Source of the DNA: Calycina herbarum
Lineage: Eukaryota > Ascomycota > Leotiomycetes > Helotiales > Pezizellaceae
Assembly: GCA_001414485.1 (NCBI GenBank)
Contig: LLEY01000049.1
Coordinates: forward strand, 310,001-374,000
Direction: 5' to 3'
DNA length: 64,000 bases
Shown: positions 35,157-63,565 of the stretch, piece after piece
Layout: each line of letters begins with the position of its first letter
How positions within the stretch are numbered: position 1 is the first letter of the stretch
Notes under the pieces: generated by a model
Seen by the model: the letters and a program-made list of their open reading frames with translations, nothing else
Database searches by the model: none
What the model was told of the DNA's origin: nothing
Program-made: the position numbers and the translations under genes

Positions 35157-37312
35157 CTAGTCATCTCCAAAATCATCATCGTCACCACCAAAACTCCCTT
35201 CATCATCTTCGCCCGTATTATCATCTTCGCCCGTATTATCGTCTTCGCCCGTATTATCGTCTGGCGTGTCTTGATCTGGGTCATCCGGTGTGGTGCCTTG
35301 ATCTGGGTCATCTGGCGTGGTGCCTTGATCTGGATCGTCTGGTGTGGTGCCTTGATCTGGATCATCTGGCGTGGTACCTTGGTCCGGATCGTCTGGCGTG
35401 GTGCCTTGATCTGGGTCATCTGGAGTTTCATCTGGCGTCCCATTCCCATTGCAATCCGGGTCGCTCTCATCACACTCTGTTCCTCCACTCCCATTGCAAT
35501 CTGGGTCGCTCTCATCACACTGTGGTCCTCCAGCTCCTCCACTGTGCGTGATATTGGAATTAGTATCGCCCTTTCTATAAGTATTCTCAAGGAAAATGAG
35601 GAGAAAACAGCGTTATAACAGGGGGAAGTGAGTTGTGTAAGTGTTTTCAATCCTCACGAAACAACGGGAAAGAGGAAAAGAAAGACTCGGAGAACACTAA
35701 CCAACTTGGGTCCTCAGGGTTTTCATCACAGTCTACTGGCCCATTTCCAGAACAGGAAGCGTCCTCGGGGTCTTCATCGCAGTCGCCGGGGGTGTTTTGG
35801 CCTGCAACAGATTAGCATAAGTTTTCCTCGTTGACTCAGGAGCCGGGGGCAGTAAGTAAGGAAAAAACCTTCTCCCCACCACTAAGAATAGGAGTTCAAA
35901 AAGGAGAATTAAAGAGAAAAGCTGCATACAAGAAGGGTCGCTTGGGTTCTCATCACAATCTACCGTTCCGCTCCCTCCACAAGAAGGATCAGTTGAACTC
36001 CCATCATCTGGGCAACCCGTTCCACTTCCTAAGCAAGACTCATCATCGGGGTTTTGGCTGCAGTCAACGGGGGAGCAAGACGGATCCTCGGGGTTCTGGC
36101 TGCAGTCAACGGGATTGCAGGAAGGGTCGTTGGGATTTTGGCTACAGTCCACGGGATTGCAAGAAGTGTCGTTGGGATTTTGGCTACAGTCCACGGGATT
36201 GCAAGAAGGGTCGTTGGGATTTTGGCTACAGTCCACGGGATTGCAAGAAGGGTCGTTGGGATTTTGGCTGCAGTCCACAGGATTGCAAGAAGGGTCGTTG
36301 GGATTTTGGCTACAGTCCACGGGATTGCAAGACGGATCATTCGGATTCGCTTGACAATCAGGCGTATTTTGGCATGATGGATCCTCTGGGTTCGCTTGGC
36401 AATCTGGCTTTCCGCTATTTTGACACGAGGGATCATTTGGGTCACACTTCGGTGGGTTTCCTTTACCTCCAGACCCAGGAGAACCGCTACCGGGTTTAGA
36501 GCCCGAGCCTGAAGAGCCACCCGAACTAGGGGGTGCTTTTGGTGGTTGACCCTTAGGCGGTTGAGGTGTTGTCTTAGGAGGAACGGTATTTGGTGGTTGA
36601 GTGTTAGATGGCCGCGGTGGTGTCTTAGGAGGGACGTTATTTGGTGGTTGAGGTGGACCGCTTGGTGGTTGCGGTGGTGTTTTAGGATTAGCGTTATTTG
36701 GTGGTTGAGGTTGGCCATTAGGTGGTTGAGGCGACGTCTGAGGAGGACCGTTATTTGGTGGTTGACCGTTAGCTGGTTGAAGTGGTGTATTAGGGGGGGC
36801 TGCTCCGTTGTTTGAAGGAGGCGGAGTTGATTTGGGAGCAGTATTGCTAGTCGAAGTCGAAGGCGGAGTGGGAAGAGGAAGGATCTTCAAACCTAAAGAT
36901 GGGGAGTCAGTATTTGCCTACCAAAAAATGGCTCGGGATTCGGCACAAGATAAACGCTGGGGTTCAGGTATGATTCAAGAGAAAGAAAGTGGGAGAACGG
37001 TGTCCCCATTACCTACAAGTTCCATTCTTCCCACCAATGGCATGGCAATAAACAGGGAAAGCTTGATCACAACAGAAAAGGCTTGTGCTCGAATCACAAT
37101 GAGCTATTCATCATCATCAGTTTATTTCTTATTATTTTAGAGTTCCTTCAACCTTCGTTTCTCGGAAGTATTGAAGGTCAGGAATGATACATACCACCAA
37201 AAGTAGCGCAATTAGCCGCAGCACGATTGATAAAGCCATTGTAGGTGGGCGCAGAAAGGACTGTTGAGCCCGTCGCCAAGATTGCGAGAGCAAGGGAGTT
37301 GGTGAGTATCAT
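35157..37312 (-). CDS. secreted repeat protein with three different repeat blocks
   Basis: The gene has four exons, 37312-37195, 36892-35930, 35801-35702 and 35541-35157, with phases that fit at every junction, giving 521 aa. Exon 1 codes for a signal peptide (MILTNSLALAILATGSTVLS, cleavage near A-PTYNG). Exon 2 has a Pro/Asn/Gln-rich block (PPNNGPPQ-like units) and then seven 14-aa repeats of the type NPVDCSQNPNDPSC. Related CDENPEDPSC units continue into exon 3. Exon 4 holds CDESDPDCNG units, six copies of TPDDPDQ with GT spacers, and a DDNTGE triplet, and ends in an acidic tail. The regular Cys spacing suggests disulfide-bonded or Ca-binding loops in the wall or matrix. No GPI signal is visible. 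The function is unknown. Intron 1 (302 nt) is long for this window and could hide another exon. Confidence 0.8.
36075..36345 (-). repeat. 42-bp coding minisatellite (14-aa repeat)
   Basis: This is a tandem array of about seven 42-bp units inside exon 2 of the secreted repeat protein, coding for NPVDCSQNPNDPSC and variants. The units are nearly identical at the DNA level, so copy number is likely to vary between strains. Confidence 0.85.
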
Positions 37313-43125: not shown

Positions 43126-43540
43126 CAAGTACGAAGTCAGCATGTGTGTTGGTTGGACAAAGTTGACAAGCAAGGCGCCGCGAATGGTTGAGCAGCTGAA
43201 TGGTGATGGAAGCGCGGAGAAGGCAAGCACCAATATCATTCTTCGCCAAGCGCTGCTTCCTCCTCGTCACCTCATTAATTGCGAGCGCGAGGAAAGGTGG
43301 TGAACTGGCCTTGTCTCGTTTGCTGTCTTAACCTCGCAGCCGCGTCAACGAGCGCGCATCACAGTTTTTTGTTATCATCCCAGAAGGGAAGGCTGGGCTG
43401 TGCAACTACCCGTGGCCTGGCGTCATCTTTGAATCGCAACTCATACTTCCTTCTTTGTCCGCTTGTCAACGTCGCAATTCTTTTTCTTCCCCCAACACCG
43501 ATTTCTTGCAAACCGACCAGCACCCATAACAACTTTCGTC

Positions 43541-44858
43541 ATGTCAGCTCGTCGTAGTCAGCGTTCCGCAGCCGTCAAGGCCAAAGAAGCAATTACTGAT
43601 AATGCCTTGTACGATAGAGCGTCATCGCGATCGGGTCGCAAGGCGTCTGAAAATATCTCTAGTGCGACCGTTTCACGTGGAAGTCTAACAGTCAAACTTT
43701 CATCTAGTAAATTGCGAGAAGCCACTCGATCAAGTCCATTGGCCCAGTCAGTCAGCATTGCAAGGAAGGAGGGACTTTCTGGTGCCGAGATCATCCAGGA
43801 CAAGAGAACCAGAAATGTTCGAAAGAGCTATGTCCTGGAATCTGATAGCGAAGAAGATGAGGATGAAGAGATGGAGGATCTTGGAGACGAGGACGCTGAA
43901 GGCGAAGACGAAGAGATTGAGGATGAGGACATGGATGCTGAGGATGATGGGTTGGGCGACGAAGACGCCGAGGGTGATATCGATATGGATGCCCCACCTC
44001 CACCACCAGTTATCAAAATTTCCAGAGCGCAAAACGGAAAACAAACCATTACCGCCAAGCCAGGTCCAAAACTCAACAACAAGACTGTTGAGCAAAAAGA
44101 AATTGCAGCCGGTAGCGACGACGATGAGGAATTGAGCGAATTGGATAGTGAGATTGGAGAAGAGGTTGATGAGGAAGAAGCTATGCAAACAGGCAATGAA
44201 GAAGACGCGGAGGGAGAAGACGAAGAGGTTGAAGCCGAAGAAGACGAAGAACTCGATAGCGATGACGAAACTCCAGGCGATGGTAGTCGTGCTTCAACTC
44301 CTGATCTCACCAAATTGACCAAGAGACAACGAGCAAGAATTGAGGAGAGCGGAAGTGGCCATTTATTGTCCTTGCCCGATGGTAAGCCTTACCAACATAT
44401 TTCAAGTTTCCCTCAACTGACCAATTTTACAGAAGTTCAAGTCAAGAAGCATTTGACGGCTGAAGAGCACGCCATGCGAAGAGCAGAGATGGCGCGTCGA
44501 CGAAAGAATCTCAGTGAGAAACGCAATGAAGAGGAGAAGGTATGTTCGCACTCCATCCTGCAATTGATTTTATATTAATCCTATTTAGATGGAAACCATC
44601 AACAAACTTCTCAAGAAGCAAGCCCCCAAAACAAACGCCCGTCGTCGAGATTTCAACGGAAATGGTGATGCGACACCCAATGGCGAGCCCCAGAAAGCAA
44701 ATCCGCTATTTGTTAGATGGGTCAGCAATAAGGATGGCAATCGAATCGGTGTTCCTGGGGAGTGGTTGGAGGCTCCAAGCGGAGGATTGTTTAGTGGTGC
44801 TGCTAAAGCTGATGGTGGTTTGGGGATGGGAGGGAAGCTTATCCAGGAGGTTTCCTAG
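43541..44858 (+). CDS. IES2: INO80 complex subunit Ies2 (PAPA-1-like)
   Basis: The gene has three exons, 43541-44381, 44433-44539 and 44589-44858, giving 405 aa. The N-terminus is basic and Ser/Arg-rich (MSARRSQRSAAVKAKEA). A long acidic Glu/Asp tract follows (about residues 108-260). The PAPA-1-like region bridges exon 2: EVQVKKHLTAEEHAMRRAEM and ARRRKNLSEKRNEEEK, then METINKLLKKQAPKTNARRR. The conserved C-terminus has NPLFVRWVSNKDGNRIGVP. Ies2 activates the INO80 chromatin-remodelling ATPase in the nucleus. Confidence 0.88.
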
Positions 44859-46221
44859 GTCGATGATTGGAGGGGGCTTGGAAGATGATACGAAATGAAA
44901 TTTGTGGTCGAACTGCGGTGTTTCTGGGAACGGGTTTGTATTTTAAGGTATGTCCAAAAGCAAACATCGAAATAGAGTGGTCAGGAGTTTGCCGGATGCT
45001 CAATGGTTCTCATGTTTTCGAGTTCTTCATGGCGATTTCGCCCTGACATTTATAGGTAATAAAACTCGTGTTTCTTTCGAGTACATCTGCTCTACCTAAC
45101 CATTCATTGAGACAATCTCATTTTACAACCTTTTAAAATTATACTAACCTACAGAATTCCAGGGATTTCCTAATTCGTCAATTGAAAAATCGCTTACATG
45201 GGTCCAAAGCTGTCCAAATTGAACTCCACTCAATTCTGTCTAGTTGTTTATTCTAAGGTCGTACCACTTTCCAGGCTGCTCGCTCAGGCATCGGTAGCTT
45301 ATTACAGCACGCCACCACTTTGCCCCTATAGCAAGCTTGCTTACTTGTACGTGCGATATAATAGCGCATGCCGAACTTCAAAGTGCGTGCTGATTTTCTA
45401 CTCTATAGGATATTCCATGACCTTCTGCATCTACAACCATCGTGTATAAATTTGTTTGAGAAGAGAATAGTTAACAAGAGACAATAGCGTGCTGTTCACA
45501 TGCACTTTGGATTTACATTATAGCTGACGAACTTCTTCCAGCGTGCAACTGAAATGGTATCACTCATTCTCTTTTAGGGCAGGATCTTATAAATGATATA
45601 ATAGGAACGGGACTTCCGAGATTAGGACATTGCTCTACGTACATCTACCTGGTATTGTTCGAGAAGGTTTAGAAGAATGAAAAACTCGGCTTCCTAATTC
45701 TCCCAAATACTCCCGAACAATGGTCTTCGCAGATCAAAAGTACAAGTAAGCTTAGGCGGAACATGACTGAGCTTCTGACTCACAAGACATACCGGAGACT
45801 TTCATCTATCATGGTCAGTTAATTCATTCACTTCTATCATTATATCCTACATGGCGTAGAGGTCTTCCAAGGCGGGTATAGAGCTCCGTTTCCAGCTACC
45901 CAGAGGAGGGAAGACGTCTAAATAGAAGTTAGATGACTCTTTTGTGAGTCAACCCCCAGTAGTGAATACTTGAACCAGTTTCAATTCCTTCCATTCGGTT
46001 CGTAAAACTAGTACCAATAGCAATTTCTACTAATTTCCGTAAACCGCCGATAACAAGGAATTATGTGCCTTATGACTAGCTAGACCCGAGTATTTGGAAC
46101 CGACTATTATGACGCACGACATCAGACATCAACTTGTTTAAATATCTACCACCTCCTTCAACTCATCTCCAACTCTTCATATAATTCATCTCTTTTGTTC
46201 GTCTCCACACCCAAACCAAAA
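44859..46221. other. intergenic, no feature supported
   Basis: The stretch contains the 3' region of IES2 and the promoter of the RVT gene. The short open frame at 45198-45449 has no support. Confidence 0.5.
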
Positions 46222-49026
46222 ATGCTGGCCTCTGGTCGAGCCGGCCGGCGGGTATGCACAACCCGTCTTCGACGCCCTGGTTTCTCAAAGACGGCCAGTC
46301 TTAAGAAACCCATCGCGGCTCAATACCAAATCAGACTCGCCTCCATGGGCTCTACTTCCACCCTTTTATCTCAAACTCTCGCTTCCGTCACCAATATCAA
46401 ACTCTCTGAACTCACGAAACGACGCACCAATTTCGAGCTGTGGAAGAGCAAATTATTTCGAGCTGTGGAAGATGAACCCGATCAAGTGAAGAAATTGCAA
46501 CTGTTGGTTGATTCATGCAGTGGTGAATTAACGCCAAAGGTGCGGGGTTTTCTGGAAGGGGCAAAGGTTGACCCAAGTGTTTCGACTGAGGTAATGAAGA
46601 GCTGGCAAGGCGAACTTGAGGAACAGATCAAAATCCAATCCGAACAATACAAGTACGCAGGCTTACACGGGGAGTTGATCAAAGAATGGCTGGCGGAGGA
46701 GGGAGCTTCGAAAAAGCGACGGTACGACACGATGAAGGAAGCTGAACGCGAACAACTTCGGGAGCAACGCCAAACTTGGGAATCATACGCTTTTACCCCT
46801 CGAGACACCGATACGGCTGCGATCAAGGATTTCCTGAAGAAATTGTTCAACAAGGAATTTATCCTCCAGGAGGCTTACAAGAAGATTGTCAAGTCTACAC
46901 GTGATTTTGAAGCCAAATTTAACGGGGAAGAATTGAACGAGAAGTCAATGAAATGGATCATCGAGGGAATGTTGAGATTAGACTCCGAAATGTTCACGGC
47001 TGAGAAACGCGAGATACTGAAGACTTTCTTGCATAATAAGGCTGCTCTAGTGGAGCTTGCTGATGTTTTGAACATGAAACTCAAGTGGTTGGATACATTT
47101 GAGTGGCATTCTGAAGATATGCTGGTTGAGCAGTGTCGAAAACTGAGTGGCAAGTATCGGTTTTTCCAAGATGAGGTAAGTCAAAGTTTGGCAATCAATC
47201 ATCTCGAATGTCTTCTTTTCGAATACGGACAGGCGCACAAACGCTAATCTCTCCCGGTAGGAACTCTTGCAATCCATTCTTGTGTATTGGATTGGCGTAA
47301 AATGGTCAGCCCATTTTAAAACGACACTTCGGGGCTTTCGTTCAAGTTTTTAGGTTTGGAAGCCGTCTACCAAACCAATTAGTGCAGGTGATCGACAATG
47401 TCGAGAGGACTTCTTAGGTGAAGTCTATTCTCAGATAGGCAACACAGTCGAAGACCACCGAGACACCCATTTTCTTAACGACATCTTCCTCGCACAATTG
47501 CAAAGCTCGGAAACTCCACAAACCGACACATACAGCTCGGAATCAGATACGAATATTAATAAAATGTCGTCGCAAAATACGCTACATCACCTCCTCCACG
47601 TACTAGCCGCTGAGATTATCTTGAAGAAGAAACAGGGCGGTGATTTATCAGTGGTTCGAAGTGATTTCCGCTGGTTCGGTCCTTCTTTGCCGCACTCCAC
47701 GATGTTTGCTGTTCTTTCCTTTCTTGGTGTGTCAGATCGATGGGTCAACATATTCCGTCGAATACTAGAGGCGCCCATCAAGTTTGCAGAAGATGGACCG
47801 GATGGAAAAGTGCAGATCAGAAAGCGAGGTATTCCTATTGGGGGTCCACTTGGTGTTATGTTAGGAGAGATGCCCTTGTTCTGTTTGGATTTTGCTTTCA
47901 ATCAAATCACCGATGGCGCGCGACTCTATCGTCTCTACGATGACTTTTGGTTTTGGGGTGATGAGCAAAGTTGTGTTGAAGGGTGGAAAGTGGTGTCTGA
48001 TTTTACGAAGCTGACAGGTTTGGAAATCAATGAAGATAAGACAGGAAGTGTGACGATTGGAGGATCTACATGGAAAATAGTGAACAAGGGATTGCCTTCT
48101 GGAGATGTTAAATGGGGATTTCTCAAGCTTGATTCCGTCACTGGAAAATTTGTCATCGATCCAGAGAGTGTGGATCAACATATCGAGCATCTCCGTGGTC
48201 AGCTTGCTAGTTGCGAATCGGTGTTTGAGTGGATTCGTACTTGGAATATTTATGGGGTCCGGTTCTTCTCCAACAACTTTGGGCCGCCGGCACATGCATT
48301 TGGGTAAGTTGTTCTGCTCTTTTTTTGATTTCGGGGCAATCAACGAGTTGTTGGAGAATATTTGGAATGTGTTCTTTTCCAAGTGTTCTCGAACATCATG
48401 GTTGTAACTAATGGGAAGGTTGGCTTGCCGTTCTAAAACTTGACAACTAACAATTCTAACATAGAAAATCCCACGTCGATGCCATGATTGAGACTTTTGG
48501 TCACATCCAAAGAAAGGCCTTCTCTTCAACTGGAGGAAGTGTAACATCCACTCTAAGAGAGATGTTGCACAAACGATTTGGCACCCAAGAGATTCTGGAT
48601 GGCTATTTATATTTTCCCATGTCAGATGGTGGACTTGGAGTGAACAACCCAATCCCCCCATTGCTAAGCATCCGCAAAATGATCAACGATCCTTCGGCAC
48701 TTGTCCAAAATGCATTGGACAAAGAAAAGCATGCTTATAGTGCTGCAAAGAAAATATACGAGATCAAAAAGAGGAAAAGCAGTTGGATTCCGACGCAGTT
48801 TATGTCCTTCGAGGAGTTCTCACGGTACCGTGAACGGACATTTAGGCCTCTAGGTGATGTTTACAAAGAATTGACTGTGGTCCCCTCTGCCGAGTTCAAG
48901 AGCTACGATATGTATCGCTCGAACATGAAGAAACGCTTTGGTGGTTTGGATATTGTACCCAAGGGGATGCTGCCTACAGGAATGATAAATATGTTTAGGA
49001 AGAGCAGGTTTCAATGGAAGGAGTGA
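46222..49026 (+). CDS. RVT: cellular reverse-transcriptase-related protein (RVT) with in-frame TAG
   Basis: Exons are 46222-47175, 47261-48303 and 48465-49026 (introns GTAAGT...GGTAG and GTAAGT...CATAG), with matching phases, giving 852 codons plus stop. The first 350 residues are helical and charged, as in the single-copy rvt genes of fungi. The polymerase part shows SDFRWFGPSLPHSTM (probable motif A), RKRGIPIGGPLGVMLGEM, and the catalytic box YRLYDDFWFWG. The C-terminal thumb-like region contains KRFGTQEILDGYLYFP-GGLGVNNP. RVTs are domesticated, non-mobile reverse transcriptases whose cellular role is unclear. TAG at 47351-47353 interrupts the frame. Either it is removed by a 57-nt in-frame intron (47297-47353, GTAAAA...TTTAG), or it is a true nonsense codon. 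That intron would delete VKWSAHFKTTLRGF, which looks conserved, and lacks a good branch point. Confidence 0.85.
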
Positions 49027-51997: not shown

Positions 51998-52745
51998 TTC
52001 CTTAAAAATGTAAATATACTACTAGATGTGGCTCGCTTCCGGTTACCTGAACCTGAAGAAGTCTTTTGTAGGTTGAAAGTCGAAGCACTATGTTACTCAA
52101 GTACAATATTAGCGACACCTAAAGTGCCAGGCAACTTGTCACTGTAAAGCACCCCAAATTTTGACTGAAACTCTGGTAGCGTGCCTGGCATTAAAAAGAG
52201 CAGAGTATAGTAATCTATAGGCTCTATAAATGCAATACATCAAACAATAAATCTAAATAGGTGTTGTGTTAAGAAGTTGTAATACTCCTTCAAAGGTGGT
52301 ATGTACATGCCCGCAAATAATCATGCGTGAACTGATGCCCAAATAATCGATTCCAAATAAATAACCGAAATTCCCGGTACCATTTTTGAACTTGATTGTT
52401 CCAAAACACCTGGGTTAATAGTCCTTTATTGTTCCAAGTGCGCAGGATAACCTAAGTGAAACTACTCAAGAAAGTGGGATCATCGAGGGCTAGGTAGTTG
52501 ACATTCGCTAGAGTCTTGGCGTATCCGATGAGACAAAGGATGAGTATCAACAGCAGAGATAAGTAGTATGGAGAAGGTCAAAATAATTCTCGATTTGGAA
52601 GAAATTAAGAATATTGAATGAAAGACTATCAACCCTATCCTGCCAAAAACCCCAAAATCAGATAATAATAATTCTCGACTCGCCAACAACCATTCCACTT
52701 CACACAACCCTCATAGTAGCAACCACAGATACCATCGTTGATTTC
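51998..52745. other. intergenic; dispersed repeat copy at about 52389-52450
   Basis: No gene is supported. The copy reads TTGTTCCAAAACACCTGGG and then TTAATAG, matching the end of the element at 58998 in the same orientation. Confidence 0.45.
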
Positions 52746-53263
52746 TTATGTTGCTATTTCGACATTAAAGTCATCGAAATAGATTGATCCTCCGGTTGGT
52801 GCTGTGCCGCAGTCTAACTCGGCTCTGAGAAGGGCTCCACCTAGGGCGGTGTAGTCGGCTCCTCTGTTGAATATGAATGTGCCAACGGTCTGTTGCCAAC
52901 CTCCTAGATTGATGGTTGCAGAATCGGTAGTTGCCATCAAATCAGCGAAGTGTATGCCGTCGTTCAAATTTGTGCCACCAAGATAATAGACCACGGTACA
53001 GTCGGTGCTGTCGACACCATCATTCTTCGTCCACTAATTTTTTTATTTAGCTGAGCTCGGGTCAATAAGCGGTTAGTTACTTACGACAGAAAGTGTGTAA
53101 TCGGTATCTGAACAGACTTGGACACCAGGTTGCTCGAATCTTGCGGCTGTGGTTCCTGTGCCCAAGAAAGTGGTTTGGGCGGATTGTTGCCCAGTGTGTG
53201 GAGAGCTGACGCCTCCGTCCAATGCAAAGTCGTAGGCAATACCAGTAGAAGAGCCCGCAACCA
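52746..53263 (-). other. C-terminal domain exons of the micro-exon gene
   Basis: Exon 53263-53085 (frame VAGSSTGIAYDFALDGG, then ARFEQPGVQVCSDTDYTLSV) and exon 53033-52746 (WTKNDGVDSTDCTVVYYLGG, then INLGGWQQTVGTFIF and SIYFDDFNVEIAT, stop) are joined in phase 0 over a 51-nt intron. The pattern (YTLSV, then FDDFNVE at the end) resembles carbohydrate-binding, galactose-binding-like beta-sandwich domains. The link between this part and the last collagen exon (53537-53543) is not resolved: phases differ by one, so another exon in 53264-53536 is probable. Confidence 0.65.
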
Positions 53264-56200
53264 CTAATTATACCCCTCCGGTGATTGTCGACGACTTTTG
53301 GCATCCCTGCATTGCAATATATGTGGATTCTTTTGGTGGGACACGTCATTCGTGCCACGATACGCTACTTGAGTAACAAAGATAACTCTAGAACTCGTAT
53401 ACCGATAAATCACCATATATCGCGCTGCGTATCAATCGATGCCCAAATCCGTTCGAGAGCACTGGAAGACGATAAACCACCACCGAGAGTGAGGGGTTGA
53501 AAAGGGGGATTGGGGTTAAGATGAAAAGTCGCATACGTGGCACCTAAACAAGTTTAGCTTCAATCGTTTGGAAATGAAGGGAGGGCTCAAACCTTGCGAA
53601 CCCTGTGGGCCTAAAGAGGAACGAATTAGTACGGCGTGAAGATTATAAACAGAGCGAGATCCCACCTGGATCGCCAGCCTAAGAGAAGAGAAGTCAGTAA
53701 CAGTTCCTAAAGAAAATCAGGCTGCGCTGAGAAAAGACTCAGCCGCAATTGCCGCAATGTGTAATAAATATGAACGCAACGACTCGGGCGCATATGTGAA
53801 AGCAACTGTTGGAATATGGGCCAGATTCCAAGAACTCCAGTGGAGCGTGATGTCTGATCGCTCGTCATCGCTAGGCGTAAGAGTTATGAGCTTTCCTCCG
53901 AAGAGAAGCCGATAATTCATCTCTCAAATCTCCTCAAAACTCTCGTATACTAGTTGTTACTGTCTTGGAAATTTTTGCGGAAGACGTAGAGCCACGACTG
54001 AAACTGTTTTGGTTGCAGACCAGAGGATTACAGCAGAAGCCAAGTGATCCCACATTTGAAGCGGACAGCGAACTGTGTACCAGCTCGTTTCCACAGTGAT
54101 TCAAATCTCTGGGGCTGGAAACTGGAAGAAAGTGGGTAAATATCGACCCTTACATCCACGTGATTATCACGTGTATGTCAAAGTAACCTCTGCAACACAG
54201 CGCCGCCGAATCAAAAGAACTCATCGGATGACGGTGAGTTCAATGAGTACCAGAGCTGTTTGCTCAATTGAGGTTGAAAGCGGATTGACTTCGTGAGACT
54301 CGGGACAGTCGCATCACGTGTCTGTGAGAAACGAGTCTCTCCCGCTCTGAGACGACACCACTGCACTGAAGTTGTGATTGGAACGGCTCATGAGAAGATC
54401 ATGCGAGCAGTTCAGTAACAATACTAAACGTGCCCCGTGAGATTTGTTGCTCGCGTCATGCCTCTTACGATGTCCCGCTCACCCGTGGAGTGAAAGCAGT
54501 GACCAAAATAAGAACGAAGAGGATGGTGCATGGAATATATTCGTGACTTACAGGCCCACTATCTCATGTTAGCACAACGTTCCACTCTAAATGAAAGACG
54601 CAAGATAGAACGCTTTCCTAACAATCTCAAATAGAACCTCGAGAATTCGGCACTTGAGCTTTGAAGAAGGGAAAGGGAAAAGACGTATTGGAGGAAGAGA
54701 TTGGGATACTAACGTCGCTCCAGTGCTTCCAGTACTTCCTAACATGTCTGTAAGTAAGCTAGTTTCAACATCCAAAAGAATGATCCAAGGTTGGAGGTGC
54801 CTTGGAACAAATCAAATGGCACGGGGATTGCTTGCCAGTTTGGCCCTGTTAAATCAGCCAGTAAGCATTCGAAGGAAGATTCCAGAGAATAGAAAAAAAC
54901 GGTAACGTCCTCTCAACTATTATTTCAAAAAGAGGGACGTGGGGGAGGGAAAGGGAATTACACACCTGGGCTCCGGTCGCGCGTGCAAAGAAAGTCAGCA
55001 ATTGCAAGAGCTAAAGGAGAGCAAGCAACTCATCTGCTAGGCCGGACGGTCCGGTATTTCCTATCAAAGTGTCATGTCAGTCCATATTTCTAGAAATTCG
55101 AAACTATCGAGCATTCTTCCGCGGATCATTTTCGCCTTGATTTCAAAAATTTGGGACAATTGAATATTATAGGAGAAGTCTAGCACCATGAGGGATAATT
55201 TCTTGAGTGCCCTATGCCAAACTCGGATATCTCCAGTTGCTGGAAAGTCTCGCGGACAGCTCGGAGCTTGTAAATGGCTGCGAGCCTCAGCTCGTGATGG
55301 ACAATCAAAGCGGCAGTAAATATTTCAGGTTCCAGGCTCGTACTTTCCTAGCCAGTCCATTTTGTTCCAACTTTCTAGGATAATTCTTTGCTACTATCCG
55401 ACAAAGTTGGAAAAATTTAAAATATCAGCCCAGATCTTTCGAACAATGATTTTGATTGTCCGACATCCTCTGAGTTAAGAAAAAGGATAAGAAGGGTGAA
55501 AGAACAAGAGATCTTTATTGCCGCAAGTGTTGTCCACCATGGACTATCCAAAAGAACGGAACATGGTGTGAAGTGATTGTCCACCGCGCGTAGCAGTACG
55601 AATAGTACACCCGAGCCCCGGAATCGGATGTTGGCTTGTTTTCGTCTTTGGATAACCTTCAGAAGAATGACTAGGAGAGAGCACATACCGGTATTTCCCT
55701 AATAACAAAGGCGTTAGTAAACATACTTCCTGTAGAACGGAGAGTTGACAGAAAACATGAATCCATCCAGGGGTCTCACCTTTACTCAAGCCGGTCCTGA
55801 GGCGTGTCAGTTGCCAAATCAGTAGTCTATCAGCTCTTTGGTTCAAACCCTGCAACGAGTTAGTGTGCTTTTTCCTCGTGAGGGGATGGGAGGGAGGCGA
55901 GAGCGTTAGCACCCCGCTCGGCAGTCGAGATCATAGAATCGAGGAAAAGCACTCATACTTGGGATCCCGTGGGGCCTAATCGCGAGTAAGTAGCTGTAAA
56001 TACGTAGGAAGAGTTGAATAAAATCTACCCGTCAAGCCTTGTGTTCTGTTGAATGTATGTAAGTATACTCCCCAGGAAATAGAAATTGTGTTTCTTCTTA
56101 CCCAGTCAAACCAGTAGAACTATGAAACGGTGGCGTCAGTGATCCTCTTGAAGGGCTGTAGATGAAGCCACGTACCCCGTCGCACTGTCATAAAACGTGT

Positions 56201-59200
56201 ATGTTAGCGATTGTCGTGAATATTTGCAGAGACGGCTACGTACCCAGTCAAACCTTCACAGAATAATTAGCTAGGTTAGTAGATCACTAAGGGTTGGTTT
56301 CACTTTCCCTGGGGCCCTAATTGAGTTTAGCTTAGCACATATGGACAATCAGATTGTGTGGAAGTCTACCTGTTACACTATTTCGTAATGTCAGCCTCTT
56401 TACGTGAGTATAGAAGGAGTCCACTCACCCCTGTGCACCTAATCACACTCAAATTAGACCTGTTATGATCGGTAGTCAACGAGAGATCAATCACCTTGGG
56501 AGCCTATACAAAATCAGCTCAGCAATTTCAACAAAGCTACCACAGAACGACAAACCCTAGTAAAAGTTAGCTTCGTTTCTTATACTTGAACAGAGAACAA
56601 CGAGGAGAAGTATCGGAGTGCGATAACTCAGATGGGGTGCGTAAGCTGGCCATATAGGGTACAGTTTCACCATAGTGCGAAGCAAAGTCGGAGAATTAAG
56701 GATTTGTTCCTTTGTTTAACCTAAATCGTTCGCACAATTGTAAACTTGACACAAGCTACATGTAATGAGTGGTAGATTGAGTGCCAGCTCAGGCAGCGAG
56801 ACGGTTTCGAGACCCCCCTGGTGGAGGGAGCGTTTGGGGGAGAGCATCACATCTTCCCACCCACGTGGCAGAGGAAAAGGGGATTACTCACTTGCGCGCC
56901 AGTGTCGCCTTTAACCTTGATTAAGAAGCTTGAAGTCAGTAACAGTCTTTATGAAAGACAATTCGGAGTTGTAAGGAATATTCCAGGAAAATTGGTGCAT
57001 AACACCACAACTCGGAAATAGTCCTAATATCGTTGGATATTGTGCTTACACCACTACCTATAATCAGCAAAGCGTTCTTCATGGAGCAGTAGGTGCTTGA
57101 AGAATAGTCGATTTTTCAAGCAGCCCAAAATTGAAACCGGTGAGTGGAAATCTTAATTCTTACGTGTCGCCTAAAGATTGTTAGCATTTTCCGGGTGACA
57201 TGGGAAAGAAAATGCCTGCCTTTTACGCCTTGAAGTCCCTAAAATGCAGAGGTTAAGTTAGCTTCAATGCTTCAATGCTAGATGGCGGAATTAAGAGGAG
57301 GGATGTTCTCAGATGGGGAACGCTCCAAAAAATCAAACCCAGTGTAGTAAGTAGTAGATTGTCGACAACATAAAAACAATAGTGGGACTTATGCCGTGTG
57401 AGTAAATAGCAGAACTCTCAATTTTGATTCCGTGTATAGAAGTAAAGTCGTGGAGAAGGTGTAAGTCGTTTGGCGAGGGGGCGCGATGTCGCGGCCAAGT
57501 TGCTAAGACACTTGTAAATGGTGTCAACATTCATACTACTGACCACACCGAGGTTTCGCATATGAGCTTATTGGTATAGCATTTTCGTGGCGGCTATGTT
57601 CATTGAAGTCGAAATGCCGCTTCTGTCGATTTGCTTGGACGAGCGATAGCCACGAAAGCCTCCACCCGCCCATGCTACCTCTGGACAAGAATAAAGTAAG
57701 AACATGGGACTTCAACTTGCCTGTGCTCCTGTAGAGGTATTAATTGTAGCTCATTATCACAGCCGCATGATTCCCCACCTTGCTGTCCTGTTAAGCCCTG
57801 GGAACCTCCAAGAAGTCAGTATTTATGGTTTCCAAATGGATTTACAAAGGCGACCAGAAGTCTTGCAGCATCATGTGCGACCGCCAATCGGAGAATATCC
57901 CGTAGCAACAAGCTCCAGTGTCTTTGGTACTAAAGCAATGATGACTTAGGGAATGGAAGTCTTCAGCTGGGATTCTTCTCGATGGTGAGCAGAACATCGC
58001 CGCACCATAGCCCATGGACGTCAATTGCCATTTTAATCCGATGGCTGCAAGACTTCCGGACACGGCTTCTTGGGGGTTTGAGCTCACCGGTTGCCCCATT
58101 GCTTCCCTAAAACAAGTAGTCGGTATCGTTCTTGTAGACTTGAGATGAGGCAGGGCTTTCTAGCTTACTTGAGGTCTAAGATATTCTTTTAGAACGGTGA
58201 ATTTATCAGCAGATATCAATATCGAGACTTACCCGGCAGGTCCAGTGGCTGTGCGAGATTTCAAAGTCAGTTTTCATTCAGTCGGAGTAGGAATAGAATT
58301 GTTTGAGGGGGACATGAAGTCTGAACCCTCCTAAAACAACCCGGGAATCGGACTCACATCCCGTGGAACCTATTGATATGTCAGTGTTTCATTCTTATCG
58401 ATCAGACAGTCAAACAAGTGAAACTGAAAATCTGAGCAGTTGACTGTCAATGGAGGATGTCTTTATATAAGCCACCGCGGTCACTTCAATGCCTGCTCAT
58501 GATAGGACAATTACTTTTCCAACGAGAGAGCTAGCAAGTTATCCGCTCCAAAACTCAATGTCAGGTTCGTTCTCCGTCTCTGGCCTTGCGACGTGATTGT
58601 GACGACTCGAGCAAGAGCATCAAAACTGAACACCGCACAGCATCGGAGACTCGGTACCATCGAATGGATGTCCTGATTGACATCACATCACGTATAATGA
58701 TCTTGGACAATGTGGTTTGAGCTTCGGTGACAAAGATCGTCTGTAGCGTGTTGGTGTATGCCGTCTATCACGACCGCTCCTCAATCACATCTAGGAGAAT
58801 TGAATCATGTGAAAGGTACCAGGTAATCAAGTGATGCACACCCTGATTATCTCGATTCTTTTCACGCCTTCAATTTGATTGTCGTAAACATCCTTGAAGA
58901 CATTGAGGGGGAAGTCTTGGCTTGGCGGAGGTCACCAGAACTCGGCCCGACGTGCTCCCGGCTTGTAGCAACCTGATATCACCCCAAGATACTTTACAAC
59001 AATTACTGTTCCAAAATACCTGGGTTAATGTGTGAAATTGTTTCGAAAGTTTGGGGTAATTACTTGAATTACCCTAAATAGTCGGAACAACCAGCTCGGA
59101 TAGGCAGGTACAAACCGCGAGTATTTACTCCCGCTTTCTCGCAGAGAGAATTCCTCAAGAATTCCTGAACTATCTCAAAGCCATACGAAGATGAAAACTG

Positions 59201-61376
59201 CTGGCTCCTATGCATCTCTGCAACAGTCCAAATACGAGTATCTGTTCTCCGAAATGGATGTGGACTGTCATGGAATTGCCGAGAGACGACGCCACCGAAG
59301 CTTTCTTGATAATTTGTTGGAATATACAAAGAGATGGTATCCGCACCTGTATCGCCCTTTGGCCCACTCTAGTGCATGCTTTCTTACCTTTCTTTGGAGG
59401 AAAATCCGCCAGAATTTTGGGAGTTTTCGTAGGCACCCAAAATGGGAATTTTGGGAGTGCGCGTATAGAGGACGTACGTATTTCCCTACAACCAACATGT
59501 TAGTCTGTGTTCAACTTGTGAGATAGTGATGCAAAGGAGGTGAGGGCTTTCGACATCCTCCCGGCTGCTGAGATCATGCAAAAGTTAAAAAATGCTGTCT
59601 ACCTGAGGGCCGGTTTGACTATCATCACTTTGTCAGCGTCTTCATGCAAGTATGGATAGAATAATTCTCCTCACCCAGTCGATCGTAGAATCAGTCAGAA
59701 GGATTTGTTCTTGCAGTAAAGCGGATCTGGCGGGGATGGGTTGGGACGAGTAGTCCTTTACGCCATCCCCGACGCGAGGTATTTTTTACCTGTGCTTCCT
59801 ACACCCTAAATTAGCTTCTCATGGGTATATAACAGCGCAGAGTCGAGCACCTGTAGCTCCCTGTTGTCTGCAGATGGTATATTAGCCTCGCTGTACAAAC
59901 AGACAACGTCGAAAACGTCGAAAGCTCACCCCGCTGGACTTGAGAACCGTCAGCTTGACATGCAGACACATAGATAACGTGGATTTTACCCCTAGAAGAA
60001 CATGGAGTTAGTTTTGCCATATCCAGAATTATGCCTGACTGGTAAACGGGGATGTGTTGGAAAATGGAGTTATGTGAGAAGGAAACAATCTCCAATCCCC
60101 CCAAATAACCATTAATAGGGAAAAGAACTTGCAGTATCGCCTTGGGGCCCTATCAAAGTCTCGTTAGTCAACACTGCCACCCTGCCATCACAGAGACGCT
60201 ACCTTGAACTCCTATCTAGATGGTTAGCCTATTCTACCTCTATAAACAGTCCTGGGTACATGCCCTGAGCTCCGTTCACTCCACTATCCATACAGTTAGC
60301 TTCAGCATGTTCATACAACCAGCCAGGAGTATTTATCTTACGCTGGGCCCTGATCCCCGGTGTCCTGAGAAGGAATAAGCCAAGATAACTAGATATTGAC
60401 TGGGCTTTTTCCTTACGCCTTTCACGCCTTGACTTCCAGCGTCACCATCAAATAATCAGCCACAACCCCTAGACAGCGGGAGATCCTTCCAAACCTTTGT
60501 CCCCTTTGCTGTAAAGATCTCTGAGTCAGCAATGCCGTTTGTAAAAAGTTCAGTGTTTGTCAAGAGCGAAGCAGACGAAGGGAAAACACGTACTTCCCCT
60601 TGGATCCAGTCGCCTGTCAAAAACACACCATCAGTATTACATGAAAACCTCGCTGTATCGAATTTACCCACCCCGGGATCTTTCAGCACTTGTCAGCAAC
60701 ATTCCTCGCCACAATTCTCTCGCATATTGTCATTCTGGTTAGAAGATAGAAGCGGACAGGAGGGCTCACATCCGTCAACGCCCGATTTTCCAGGTGGCCC
60801 AACAGCTCCACCCAATTGATAAATGTTCAGTCTTTGTGTTCCACCACAAACTTGAGCTCAGTTACCCCTGCAAGAGGTGGCACAATCCCCAGCAGGCATA
60901 ACCATACTTCCGGAACGAATAGCGTTACCACAGTAGCACTAAATATACCATGTGAGCATTAACTTATAAGCGACGTGCGAAAGACTTCAGAACAATCATA
61001 TGTAATAAACATGAGAAACTTGATTTCGGAATATCTCTACCCTTCTCAGGCGCAATTATGCGGAAGATTTTCGAGTAATAGTAGAGGGATCACAAAAGTA
61101 AGAAGAAATCTCTTACATCGCCCCATTCTCGACACCCATAACGGTGTATCCTTGACATTGCGTGGCGCAAATTTCGAGAGTAAGCGAGTTGCTGCTGTAA
61201 AGCTTTCCTTGGAGTGCTCTGGTGGAAGCACTATCAGAATAACATCCTTCTGTCGTGAACGAGTAAACTGTGTTTCCCGCTGGATTAGGAACCGGGGATC
61301 CGTTGGCTAACGTCGATAAGCCAAGCAGGCGGTAGGCCGCCGTCCAAAAGAGTGTGGGGGGTTGCATGATTCGCAT
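52746..61376 (-). CDS. WSC / collagen-like protein encoded by about 46 micro-exons
   Basis: This is an 8.6-kb gene. Exon 1 (61376-61117) gives a signal peptide (PPTLFWTAAYRLLGLSTLA) and the first half of a WSC domain (TEGCYSDS, LTLEICATQCQGYTVMGVE). The next exon (60938-60770) gives CYCGNAIRSGSMVMPAGDC, then CGGTQRLNIYQLGG and the first Gly-X-Y triplets. About 46 exons of 1-27 nt follow, almost all with acceptor AG and donor GT or GC, many with CTRAC-type branch points. Their joined frame stays in Gly-X-Y register through about 65 triplets rich in Thr, Gln, Ser, Pro and Ala. Two last exons (53263-53085 and 53033-52746) code for a beta-sandwich-like domain. The product should be a secreted, possibly trimeric, wall-associated protein. 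Doubts are TGA codons at 60858-60860 and 55786-55788, a one-base phase mismatch at three junctions, and a few damaged splice sites, so a decaying gene is possible. Confidence 0.8.
53537..55060 (-). other. collagen micro-exons, block 3 (8 exons)
   Basis: In order: 55034-55060 (27 nt, AT donor), 54966-54982 (17, AC acceptor), 54836-54845 (10, GC donor), 54714-54738 (25), 54551-54557 (7), 53666-53678 (13), 53593-53610 (18), 53537-53543 (7). The product, in pieces, is NTG PSG LAG ATG AQG QTG, then STG STG ATG PAG DPG, then PQG SQG AT. The intron between 54966-54982 and 55034-55060 is 51 nt with a GCTGAC branch point. Confidence 0.75.
55061..55688. repeat. repeat-bearing insertion in an intron of the micro-exon gene
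   Basis: This intron is 628 nt, while most others are near 50 nt. It contains AAGCGGCAGTAAATATTTC at about 55309, TTTTGTTCCAACTTTCTAGG at about 55361 and TTGGGACAATTG near 55150, all pieces of the dispersed family. Confidence 0.55.
55689..58369 (-). other. collagen micro-exons, block 2 (23 exons)
   Basis: In order: 58358-58369 (12 nt), 58233-58248 (16), 58169-58175 (7), 58088-58106 (19), 57779-57805 (27), 57721-57728 (8, GC donor), 57220-57238 (19, GC donor), 57164-57170 (7), 57052-57053 (2), 56892-56908 (17), 56556 (1), 56495-56503 (9), 56429-56438 (10), 56370-56377 (8), 56308-56316 (9, donor GA), 56244-56253 (10), 56176-56184 (9), 56102-56119 (18), 56029-56037 (9), 55959-55975 (17), 55849 (1), 55780-55796 (17, contains TGA where GGA is expected), 55689-55698 (10). 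An extra C in the CCCC run at the start of exon 55959-55975 would explain a one-base register slip there. Confidence 0.7.
58370..59346. repeat. repeat-bearing insertion in an intron of the micro-exon gene
   Basis: The intron is 977 nt. At 59007-59098 lies an inverted-repeat element running from TGTTCCAAAATACCTGGG to CCCTAAATAGTCGGAACA (about 90 bp). Immediately beyond it are CAGGTACAAACCGCGAG and TATTTACTCCCGCTTTCTCG, which match other family members in reverse. Confidence 0.65.
59347..60680 (-). other. collagen micro-exons, block 1 (15 exons)
   Basis: In transcript order: 60673-60680 (8 nt), 60594-60613 (20), 60417-60432 (16), 60342-60364 (23), 60264-60283 (20, GC donor), 60203-60211 (9), 60133-60149 (17, GC donor), 59990-59991 (2), 59930-59938 (9), 59851-59867 (17), 59790-59798 (9), 59675-59684 (10, preceded by AC, not AG), 59604-59619 (16), 59477-59484 (8), 59347-59366 (20). 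The product, in pieces, is YPG ATG SKG NQG VKG DTG, then DQG PAG VNG AQG VQG PQG, then DTG PAG QQG ATG STG STG, then QTG PQG NTG PKG DTG. Confidence 0.75.
60770..61376 (-). other. exons 1-2 of the micro-exon gene: signal peptide, WSC domain, first collagen triplets
   Basis: Exon 1 is 61376-61117 (260 nt) and ends GCG-AT before GTAAGA. Exon 2 is 60938-60770. WSC spacing demands one more base between them: a single G between GAGAAG and GTAGAG in the intron would supply it, or the junction is broken. After SCRGN an in-frame TGA (60858-60860) stands where Ser or Ala is usual, and WSC homology continues on both sides. Exon 2 ends ...GGA-T, which the next 8-nt exon completes. Confidence 0.7.
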
Positions 61377-63565
61377 TTGATAATCAATGAAAGTAAAAGA
61401 ATTAAAGAAAAAAATCGCGGTGACGGAGCAAAGGGCAGGTCCAGGATTGTGGTCTTTAAATGGCAGCAAATCTCGGGAGTTTTGGGGAGGCAAAAATGGT
61501 GAGATGGAATGTGGGTTGGAATGTGGGTTGGAATGTATAAATTGACGATGATGAAACGTTTCATACTCACGAATTGATTGGCTTGGAGAAGGTATCCAGG
61601 ATAAGCTTCTTTGGTCGCCAATAATTCCCTAAGAAAGATAAACTTGCTCTAAAAATTGTAAATGTCAGACACCAAAACGCGATAAATTCCAATAACCCGT
61701 GGGAAAAGGACGCTGGAAAGGCGTTGCACAGAAAAGCTCCGTGATCATCCCAGGCCAGGGAGTTGGATCCGTTGACTGCTAAGATGTTCTAGCCACGTGC
61801 AGATGAAACCCAACGACCTGTTCAACAAACCATGCCAATCGGTCTACAGTGAAGAAAAGCGGGGGCAATTATCCATAATGGGGAAATGCGCACAAAAATC
61901 AGAAGGTCCGTACTGAAATTAGTTTTTGGTCTTGTCCGCCCTCCTTCACAGCGGAAAGTAAAAGCGTCTGAAGGTCGTACCTGACTACCTCTCCTGAACA
62001 CTTAGGAAATTCAAGAACATTGACCTGAGCTTTTAGAACAATTTCACTGGTTCTAAAGTATTTGGGGTATTGTTAGAACTTACTAGAAAATTGGAACGAC
62101 GAGGTTTTTTTACTGCCGCTTTGGTTGTCCGCACGAGCGCTCGTCAGGTATGTTATGCCATCATTCCGCCATGAAAATGCGATCTCTCGATCCGTAAAAA
62201 GCTTACATAATTGAATAGAATAAATTTTAACTTGTAACAGATAGAAATCATGAGGATTGCAAGCTTTTTACAATTGCTTGAAAAACAAACATCTCCTGAT
62301 CAAGTGGCTCATATGGTGGTTTCTCCTATCGGAATATGACAAAAAACAAACTATTTCGCTTTAGAAGTTAAATGCTGAAATGGAAACTCATGTCAGATTC
62401 GTGATATTTATATAAGCCCTTTCAAACCGTTCAATTGCTCCTGGGTTCTGTTAATACGAGATGACTTGCCAGTGGCCGTGGGGGAATTTATGTTAGAAAG
62501 CTGCTCAAGTCAAACTTTACAGGAGATCAGACTTCCAATCACTTCTAAAACTGTCAAGTGACAAGTGTTGTAGATGATTTGCCATTTTTTAGTCGTTCCA
62601 AGTCTCCCAAATTTGCTTGTCCTCCCCTCACCACGCACCAAAGTCTTGGCTACGAGTTCACGCAACACCTTCTGAGCTTCAATAGGCTGAGTAAAGATCT
62701 CTTGTTACTAATTAATAAGTTAGAAAGTTACCAACCGAAATTGTTCAATATGCAACATTCAATCTCGCTTAATTCACCCCCGGCAAAAATTATCTCTTTC
62801 CATTATTCACTAAGCAAGCTCTTATCATTTGTATCGCGGATACCTTCAACCACTTCCAACCTCCAAATTATTCCATTGGCTCGGTCTTCATCCACGTGAC
62901 CGCGCTAGCGACGCCACCACAATGAAGAAAATATTCTGCTTCGCAAACCCTCCTCGCTCCTTTTCTCTAAACCTTGACCACCTCCTCTCTCTCCATTTCT
63001 CCGCCCCCTTTCCCCACCCCTACCTCCTAAGCTTCTATCTTGGACGCCGCCAACGCTACTCCAGGATTCTGTCATACTAGTCATCTCCTTGGGAAGACAC
63101 AACGTCACCACATACGGTGGGTGATTGCGGGCGCATGATTGAATGCTTCCCTCGCCAGCTCGAGCAACGAACTCATCAACGAGCCAAACGACAACCGCAG
63201 GAGGAAAGGCGGGAAACGGAACGTTTGTAGGAGTTATTTGCATGTATCAATTCAGTCTATAATTCTTCCGCCCACCTCACCACTCGTTCTGATGGCAGAT
63301 TACAACGCAATTTGACATACTAACAACTTGTTCAGACAAACCTCGACTTGGAATCTTTTCTCACATCAATTCACCAAGCCTCCAGATTACCCCACTCGGC
63401 TCTGAACGCTAATCGCCACAATTGTGTCTCATCCTCTTTTCTGGTTTTACTGCGACGTCCTATCGAACTACATCACTCTCAGTACAACTCACCCTCACAG
63501 TCCATCCAATCACACAAGGCTCCAAGTCGACTTCTACATCTTCAACTGCCAGAAGTGCAATTCAT
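61377..63565. other. promoter region and dispersed repeat copy
   Basis: This is the upstream region of the micro-exon gene. At about 61970-62130 are family words (CGTACCTGACTACCTCTC, AATTGGAACGACGAGG, ACTGCCGCTTTGG). Open frames at 62558-62899 and 62905-63243 have no supporting features. Confidence 0.45.

Follow-up and report, generated by a model that had tools for sequence, protein, structure and literature searches.

A collagen-like gene of Calycina herbarum with a stalk predicted to be spliced from about forty micro-exons, and its sister with a predicted open frame

How small, and how numerous, can the exons of a single fungal gene be? The question is raised by a locus of Calycina herbarum that lies within a stretch of 64,000 nucleotides (nt), hereafter the window (contig LLEY01000049.1, positions 310,001 to 374,000; part of C324 among the 379 contigs of a 68.8-Mb genome). 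An earlier note, made from the letters of this stretch, had read positions 52746-61376 as a collagen-like gene split into about 46 micro-exons. Our analyses make it very probable that the locus is a collagen-like gene with a WSC domain in front and a carbohydrate-binding-like domain behind, that its Gly-X-Y stalk is predicted to be spliced from about 40 micro-exons, and that the window copy, which carries an in-frame TGA, is the likely recently damaged sister of a copy on contig C311 whose predicted frame is open. The earlier micro-exon collagen reading therefore stands as regards the glycine register, the composition of the X and Y residues and the design of the paralog, whereas its individual exons are less secure (16 of 42 are model-dependent) and the TGA of the window copy had not been part of it. 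The flanking WSC and carbohydrate-binding-like domains, the C311 paralog, the TGA and phase jump of the window copy and the duplication of cassettes are all additions to that note.

A glycine register carried across exon boundaries

The best exon chain was sought with a splice-aware dynamic programme that admits exons from 1 nt and GT-AG introns of 42-1300 nt, uses a splice model set by hand for ascomycetes from the consensus, and rewards only the presence of G at positions 1 and 2 of each 9-nt period. On the minus strand of 52700-61400 the resulting register score was 123.9, or 116.7 with stops forbidden. Control periods of 5-17 scored at most 29.4 and the harmonic period 18 scored 54.6, the 15 other dinucleotides reached at most 23.5, the antisense strand 10.2, the rest of the window (22 overlapping tiles, both strands) at most 18.4, and 200 dinucleotide shuffles of the array had a mean of 9.6 and a maximum of 16.1. 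A splice model trained solely on the paralog left the window locus at 117.2, with controls at or below 25.6. Among 30 loci of the genome searched on both strands, scores above 18 outside the two genes came only from two low-complexity repeats (31.8 and 36.5, each present in two loci and chosen by collagen profile) and one G-rich stretch (28.0).

Two further shuffles addressed the exons themselves. With the letters shuffled within each chosen exon (n=200), the maximum was 31.1 against a real score of 129.6. Shuffling the order of the exon-intron cassettes (n=200) keeps every cassette and breaks only the hand-over of the register between successive exons, and it gave a mean of 50.3 and a maximum of 75.9 against the same 129.6, a comparison that somewhat favours the real score since the cassettes had been selected from the original arrangement. 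Reordering thus costs a large part of the score, the order of the exons carries a register signal of its own, and the earlier argument that glycine phase carries over the exon boundaries is borne out.

The residues between the glycines point in the same direction. Gly-X-Y is uninterrupted in 55 of 55 triplets of the GT-only window chain and in 74 of 74 of the paralog, in a search that rewards GG. The X and Y residues are not scored by that search, and in the GT-only chain of the window locus 98 out of 110 are P, A, K, E, D, S, T, Q or N, versus 43% of intron codons (p ~1e-23); in the paralog this holds for 125 of 148 (p ~2e-25). The Y position is led by Thr (23 of 55 triplets) and Gln (13 of 55) in the window and by Asp, Pro, Gln and Asn in the paralog, which gives the stalks unlike chemistries. 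Sugars attached to Thr at Y might help to stabilise a triple helix.

A sister gene with a predicted open frame on contig C311

A collagen-profile search of the genome, made exon by exon, gave three matches, and a search with the WSC part of the window gene led at 60% identity to contig C311, right beside the only one of the three that lies above the cut-off. The two others (C143 and C19) were discarded as low-complexity stretches. The C311 gene model (C311:108576-103658, minus strand) comprises 34 predicted exons and 548 amino acids, is stop-free from start to stop and begins with a probable signal peptide (by eye). Its profile scores are 72.4 bits for WSC (cut-off 27.8), 135.3 for Collagen (cut-off 27.2; partly circular) and 27.7 for CBM_4_9 (cut-off 25.9), and its array has a register score of 194.9 versus at most 15.5 for shuffles. 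Retention of any of 31 among the 33 introns would disrupt the reading frame or introduce a stop codon; 23 of the 33 measure 47-66 nt in the model, and the predicted density is about 20 introns per kb (33 in 1.65 kb of coding sequence). The array exons are larger than those of the window (8-117 nt), with multiples of 9 making up 14 of 27 internal exons versus 4 of 34 in the window, and multiples of 3 making up 15 of 27 and 7 of 34, respectively. At the DNA level the two genes share almost nothing, with a single 41-nt match, yet the encoded proteins are 59% identical in the WSC part and 42% identical in the end domain, which is why we regard them as old duplicates.

The C311 copy also retains traces of how its array was built. 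A 185-bp unit of introns plus exons occurs there in 2.1 copies, and three cassette pairs match at 85, 78 and 71%; exon-intron cassettes have been duplicated in tandem at this locus. Within the three pairs, changes fall on 0 of 36 first and second positions of Gly codons, on 16 of 69 such positions of X/Y codons and on 46 of 230 intron positions (Gly versus introns, p=0.0013; Gly versus X/Y, p=0.001), which agrees with selection on glycine but is partly circular, the chain having been chosen for GG. In the same array (locus L015, 5424-5335), a 10-nt piece with an AT acceptor and a 17-nt piece, both coding for Gly-X-Y, sum to 27 nt and are both skippable in frame.

Plan of the window copy

The predicted gene lies on the minus strand, and its ATG at 61376 and its TAA stop at 52748-52746 are both present where the earlier note had placed the ends. 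A stop-free chain of 42 exons with canonical introns (GT-AG or GC-AG) connects WSC exon 2 to the end domain in frame; it is 568 nt long and holds 63 triplets, close to the roughly 65 first proposed, and 41 of its 42 predicted exons are at most 36 nt. Adding exon 1 and the three exons of the end domain brings the prediction to 46 exons, the figure of the earlier note. The number of array exons varies by model from 36 to 42; the union over models is 52, and 26 are common to all six variants, 25 of them at most 30 nt. The predicted density is about 31 introns per kb (45 introns in ~1.47 kb of coding sequence). WSC (PF01822) scores 57.5 bits for exon 1 and part of exon 2 (cut-off 27.8), and Collagen (PF01391) scores 45.5 bits for a 67-residue piece (cut-off 27.2; partly circular). 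The end domain joins in frame via 53461-53414, 53263-53085 and 53033-52746, the first two junctions having weak sites. A first reading of 53260-53460, as a truncated end domain preceded by a TAA, was rejected: GT-AG introns, some with weak sites, place this TAA in an intron, and for this reason it is not counted as damage.

The features of the window copy are given below, all on the minus strand (-). Array exons marked "common" belong to the canonical chain and to all six models; those marked "variable" belong to the canonical chain and are model-dependent.

61117-61376 (-): exon 1, with start ATG, likely signal peptide (by eye) and first WSC half; Pfam WSC, WSC part 59% identical to paralog
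61041-61041 (-): possible 1-nt exon (AG/G/GT) settling the exon 1/2 phase; weak, best of six candidates listed, summed site score -1.6
60770-60938 (-): exon 2, second WSC half and first Gly-X-Y triplets; CYCGN...CGG..RLNIYQLGG aligned to paralog, array part from 60809 in all six models
60858-60860 (-): in-frame TGA inside the WSC domain, from the sequence and an X column of the alignment; sense codon in paralog
60672-60679 (-): array exon, 8 nt, common
60594-60613 (-): array exon, 20 nt, common
60495-60508 (-): array exon, 14 nt, variable
60417-60427 (-): array exon, 11 nt, variable
60342-60364 (-): array exon, 23 nt, common
60264-60283 (-): array exon, 20 nt, GC donor, variable
60203-60211 (-): array exon, 9 nt, variable
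60133-60149 (-): array exon, 17 nt, GC donor, variable
59990-59991 (-): array exon, 2 nt, variable
59930-59938 (-): array exon, 9 nt, variable
59851-59867 (-): array exon, 17 nt, variable
59790-59798 (-): array exon, 9 nt, variable
59675-59684 (-): candidate 10-nt exon, acceptor AC not AG (possible decay); only in the chain allowing non-canonical sites
59603-59618 (-): candidate 16-nt exon; in two alternative chains (one with relaxed sites), absent from canonical chain
59478-59485 (-): array exon, 8 nt, register varies by model; canonical and two alternative chains
59347-59366 (-): candidate 20-nt exon, weak acceptor; in two alternative chains, absent from canonical chain
59073-59073 (-): 1-nt exon, doubtful (in dispersed repeat), variable
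59007-59137 (-): dispersed repeat, ~130 bp, in the 977-nt intron of two alternative chains; at least 41 further genome matches, 72-81%
58358-58369 (-): array exon, 12 nt, common
58233-58248 (-): array exon, 16 nt, common
58169-58175 (-): array exon, 7 nt, common
58088-58106 (-): array exon, 19 nt, common
57779-57805 (-): array exon, 27 nt, common
57721-57728 (-): array exon, 8 nt, GC donor, variable
57220-57238 (-): array exon, 19 nt, GC donor, variable
57164-57170 (-): array exon, 7 nt, common
57050-57053 (-): array exon, 4 nt, common
56892-56915 (-): array exon, 24 nt, common
56556-56556 (-): array exon, 1 nt, common
56495-56503 (-): array exon, 9 nt, common
56429-56438 (-): array exon, 10 nt, common
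56370-56377 (-): array exon, 8 nt, common
56308-56316 (-): candidate 9-nt exon, donor GA not GT, skippable in frame; only in the relaxed-site chain
56244-56253 (-): array exon, 10 nt, common
56176-56184 (-): array exon, 9 nt, common
56102-56119 (-): array exon, 18 nt, common
56029-56045 (-): array exon, 17 nt, common
55959-55975 (-): array exon, 17 nt, common
55780-55796 (-): candidate 17-nt exon, TGA at Gly position, in-frame skipping possible together with a 1-nt exon at 55849; in the best chain with stops allowed
55689-55698 (-): array exon, 10 nt, common
55030-55060 (-): array exon, 13 or 31 nt, 3' end uncertain; canonical and alternative chain
54962-54965 (-): array exon, 4 nt, uncertain; canonical chain, with the alternative 54970-54966 in another chain
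54836-54845 (-): array exon, 10 nt, GC donor, variable
54714-54738 (-): array exon, 25 nt, common
54552-54558 (-): array exon, 7 nt, common
53666-53678 (-): array exon, 13 nt, common
53593-53610 (-): last array exon, 18 nt; canonical chain, one base longer in all six models
53414-53461 (-): predicted 48-nt exon, start of end domain (VLSNGFG...); canonical chain, weak sites, in-frame join
53085-53263 (-): exon, end domain (YDF..PHTGQQSA); aligned to paralog and C338 gene, tblastn
52746-53033 (-): last exon, end domain and stop TAA; canonical chain and alignment, intron position shared with paralog and C338 gene (by eye)

The repeat at 59007-59137, whose further genome matches are at 72-81% identity, lies inside a long array intron. 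The stretch around 59073 is threaded differently by two alternative chains, one of them with relaxed sites, which treat it as a 977-nt intron.

Several observations weigh against the collagen reading or parts of it. The choice of model decides on 16 of the 42 window array exons, some donors of the canonical chain are weak (GTTTGG, GTAGCG, GTGCTC), and its 1-nt exon at 59073 is doubtful because it falls within the dispersed repeat. With stops allowed, the best window chain includes an exon in which a TGA takes the place of a Gly codon, and one exon of the C311 gene has an AT acceptor. The end domain of the window copy scores 16.2 bits for CBM_4_9 (PF02018), below the cut-off of 25.9. The chain was chosen for GG, hence the circular part of the Pfam Collagen scores, and forbidding stops in the chain slightly raises the fair baseline for X/Y residues. 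The AlphaFold model of the Amylocarpus relative described below is poor (mean predicted local distance difference test score, pLDDT, of 39.9) and holds strands only. As for the damage to the window copy, its single TGA could be an assembly error.

Is the window copy still active?

In the window copy, the frame is not open from start to stop. The TGA at 60860-60858 sits in frame within the conserved WSC domain of exon 2, where the paralog has a sense codon, and exons 1 and 2 join in phase only with an extra exon of 1 nt (or 3k+1 nt) between them, for which the best of the six candidates listed is 1 nt at 61041, with weak sites (-1.6). Because of the TGA and this phase jump, the window copy may be a pseudogene. 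If splice sites may hold single wrong bases, the chain also takes in one exon of 10 nt behind an AC acceptor and another of 9 nt in front of a GA donor. These features suggest that the copy was damaged recently and that the full protein is likely no longer made.

The strongest competing explanation, a plausible one to which we assign a little less than even weight, is that the window copy is active: the TGA would be an error of the assembly or the strain, a 1-nt exon would repair the phase, and the full protein would be spliced from about 46 exons. A canonical, stop-free chain does lead from WSC exon 2 across the end domain as far as the stop, the two terminal domains remain 59% and 42% identical to those of the paralog despite near-total divergence of the DNA, and a 1-nt exon is reported for a fungal gene (PMC12940212). 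Against these stand the position of the TGA in a conserved domain, the low score of the candidate at 61041, and the candidate exons with broken sites or with TGA at a Gly position.

An unlikely alternative is that the micro-exons serve regulated variation, 9-nt exons being included or skipped to alter stalk length. The C311 gene lends itself to this idea, with 14 of 27 internal exons being multiples of 9 and an exon pair, the first member having a bad acceptor, that totals 27 nt; however, only 4 of 34 internal exons of the window copy are such multiples, so that skipping would mostly break the register. Quite improbable is a third possibility, namely that the introns are copies of one mobile intron (an introner) that invaded a repeat-coding exon. 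Insertion at AG/G would leave a G at both borders. In C311 a G stands before 18 of 28 donors and after 26 of 28 acceptors, and in the window copy before 20 of 35 donors and after 20 of 35 acceptors; the search itself partly imposes the G that comes after an acceptor. Comparison within and between the two loci found no mutual similarity among window introns, and invasion by one mobile intron is therefore not supported; moreover, the matches within C311 are between tandem cassette copies, and the one dispersed repeat tested sits within one long intron. Finally, we give almost no credence to the idea that the chain arises from the latitude of the search, which could thread any GG-rich stretch with 1-30 nt exons and degenerate splice sites, since, although exon choice does vary among models (52 in the union, 26 shared), the other periods, dinucleotides, tiles and all types of shuffle score far lower and the unscored X/Y residues are still collagen-like; the controls refute chance threading of the array as a whole, and single exons may still be affected.

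Relatives and a possible hidden family

A profile of the three end domains matched five proteins among 1864 candidates, and a protein search in which the end domain was scored within the full-length protein gave no match among 174 candidates. The relatives so found point to the Helotiales. The fragment P0004 matches the C311 gene at 91% and reads through the same end-domain intron, and in P0007, a 79% relative, the frame likewise runs beyond the end domain at that intron position (by eye). The annotated gene BJ875DRAFT_440423 of Amylocarpus encephaloides encodes about 22 collagen triplets, one of them without Gly, plus the end domain; it has no WSC match at E 0.01 and an unlikely start, and its model looks truncated, as if small exons had been missed. 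This would fit the earlier suspicion that gene finders overlook genes of this type.

Hymenoscyphus fraxineus HYFRA_00002762 and P0008 look nearer to a third C. herbarum gene, on contig C338 (locus L021, 7490-8467, plus strand), which has a Ser/Thr-rich stalk, the same end domain and a shared intron position (by eye). The C338 gene and HYFRA_00002762 resemble the window gene in the end domain and differ from it in having a Ser/Thr-rich stalk instead of collagen; the register search found no micro-exon array at the C338 locus. A WSC search gave 3 matches among 107 candidates, with no collagen among the Pfam domains listed for them. The only match of a PDB sequence search, an antibody at E 0.061, was taken as chance.

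Based upon these features, a working model can be proposed. Firstly, splice sites would be paired across the short introns (intron definition), and there would therefore be no lower limit on exon size. Secondly, the product is presumably secreted and would trimerise through its collagen stalk and bind glycans, either those of the fungal cell wall or those of a host or substrate. Thirdly, arrays may grow by duplicating cassettes of introns plus exons of ~9k nt and may decay by loss of single splice sites. We consider it an even question whether this extends to a wider picture, in which the Helotiales would hold a hidden family of secreted glycan-binding collagens with stalks spliced from 30 to more than 40 micro-exons, the smallest of 1-2 nt. 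No denser series of spliced micro-exons would then be known from fungi; the spliceosome would pair sites across 50-nt introns, and the arrays would grow satellite-like through cassettes of an intron and a 9-nt exon and die by single-site loss, as the two copies would illustrate.

Should the predicted splicing hold, the locus would test how small and how numerous the exons are that an intron-defining spliceosome can handle. Glycine at every 9 nt would in addition serve as a ruler that checks exon boundaries without RNA, and fungal collagens would probably be under-counted by gene finders.

Other features of the window

A Gti1/Pac2 family gene lies at 5101-6618 on the minus strand (E 4e-43), and 43433-44578 on the plus strand contains a PAPA-1-like region (E 6.7e-8), perhaps part of a chromatin-remodelling subunit. 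Three adjacent open frames at 46084-49026 (plus strand) are possibly one intron-bearing gene or a retroelement; the middle frame (47354-48307, plus) has a weak match to the RVT_1 reverse transcriptase (20.4 bits, below the cut-off of 29.6), and the two outer frames match no Pfam family at E 0.01. Two repeat-rich frames at 35157-36917 (minus strand), with DCSQNPNDPSCNPV and TTPDDPDQG units, have no Pfam match.

Comparison with known systems

Collagen-like proteins (PF01391) include fungal MCL1 and the animal fibrillar collagens, and their defining traits, Gly at every third residue and a repeat stalk between other domains, are also found in the window gene and its paralog. Exons of animal collagens tend to open on a complete Gly codon, to have lengths divisible by 9 and to measure 45-108 nt. 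The first two of these traits are also frequent among the C311 exons. Unlike those of animal collagens, however, the exons here are mostly 1-30 nt, the window lengths are mostly not multiples of 9, and the stalk is flanked by WSC and carbohydrate-binding-like ends.

Schistosome micro-exon genes (MEGs) are serial micro-exon genes. Aphid bicycle genes have a mean of ~17 exons, and one megacycle gene has more than 100 micro-exons (PMC9168663). Both groups share with the window gene serial micro-exons, products thought to be secreted and a tendency to be missed by standard annotation or search. The proteins appear unrelated and their domains differ, the introns here are short fungal ones, and the exons follow a strict 9-nt repeat code. 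The symmetric exons or uniform phase of MEGs and bicycle genes are not seen either, since window exons are not mainly symmetric (7 of 34 are multiples of 3, against 15 of 27 in the paralog).

Filamentous ascomycetes are described in PMC8476143 as biased to intron loss, and the highest genome-mean intron density of the fungal survey given there is 4.5 per kb. A micro-exon collagen from a fungus was not found described in the open-access literature. Individual fungal micro-exons include a 20-nt exon in Trichoderma Xlr2 (PMC11121469), a 1-nt exon in Fusarium CYP621A and an 8-nt exon in a Phanerochaete P450 (both PMC12940212), and the same 2024 paper on Xlr2 (PMC11121469) states that functional micro-exons had not previously been described in filamentous fungi. 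In these cases, as in the window gene, tiny exons lie between canonical sites; as far as these sources describe them, however, there are one or a few per gene, whereas dozens are predicted to follow one another in series here.

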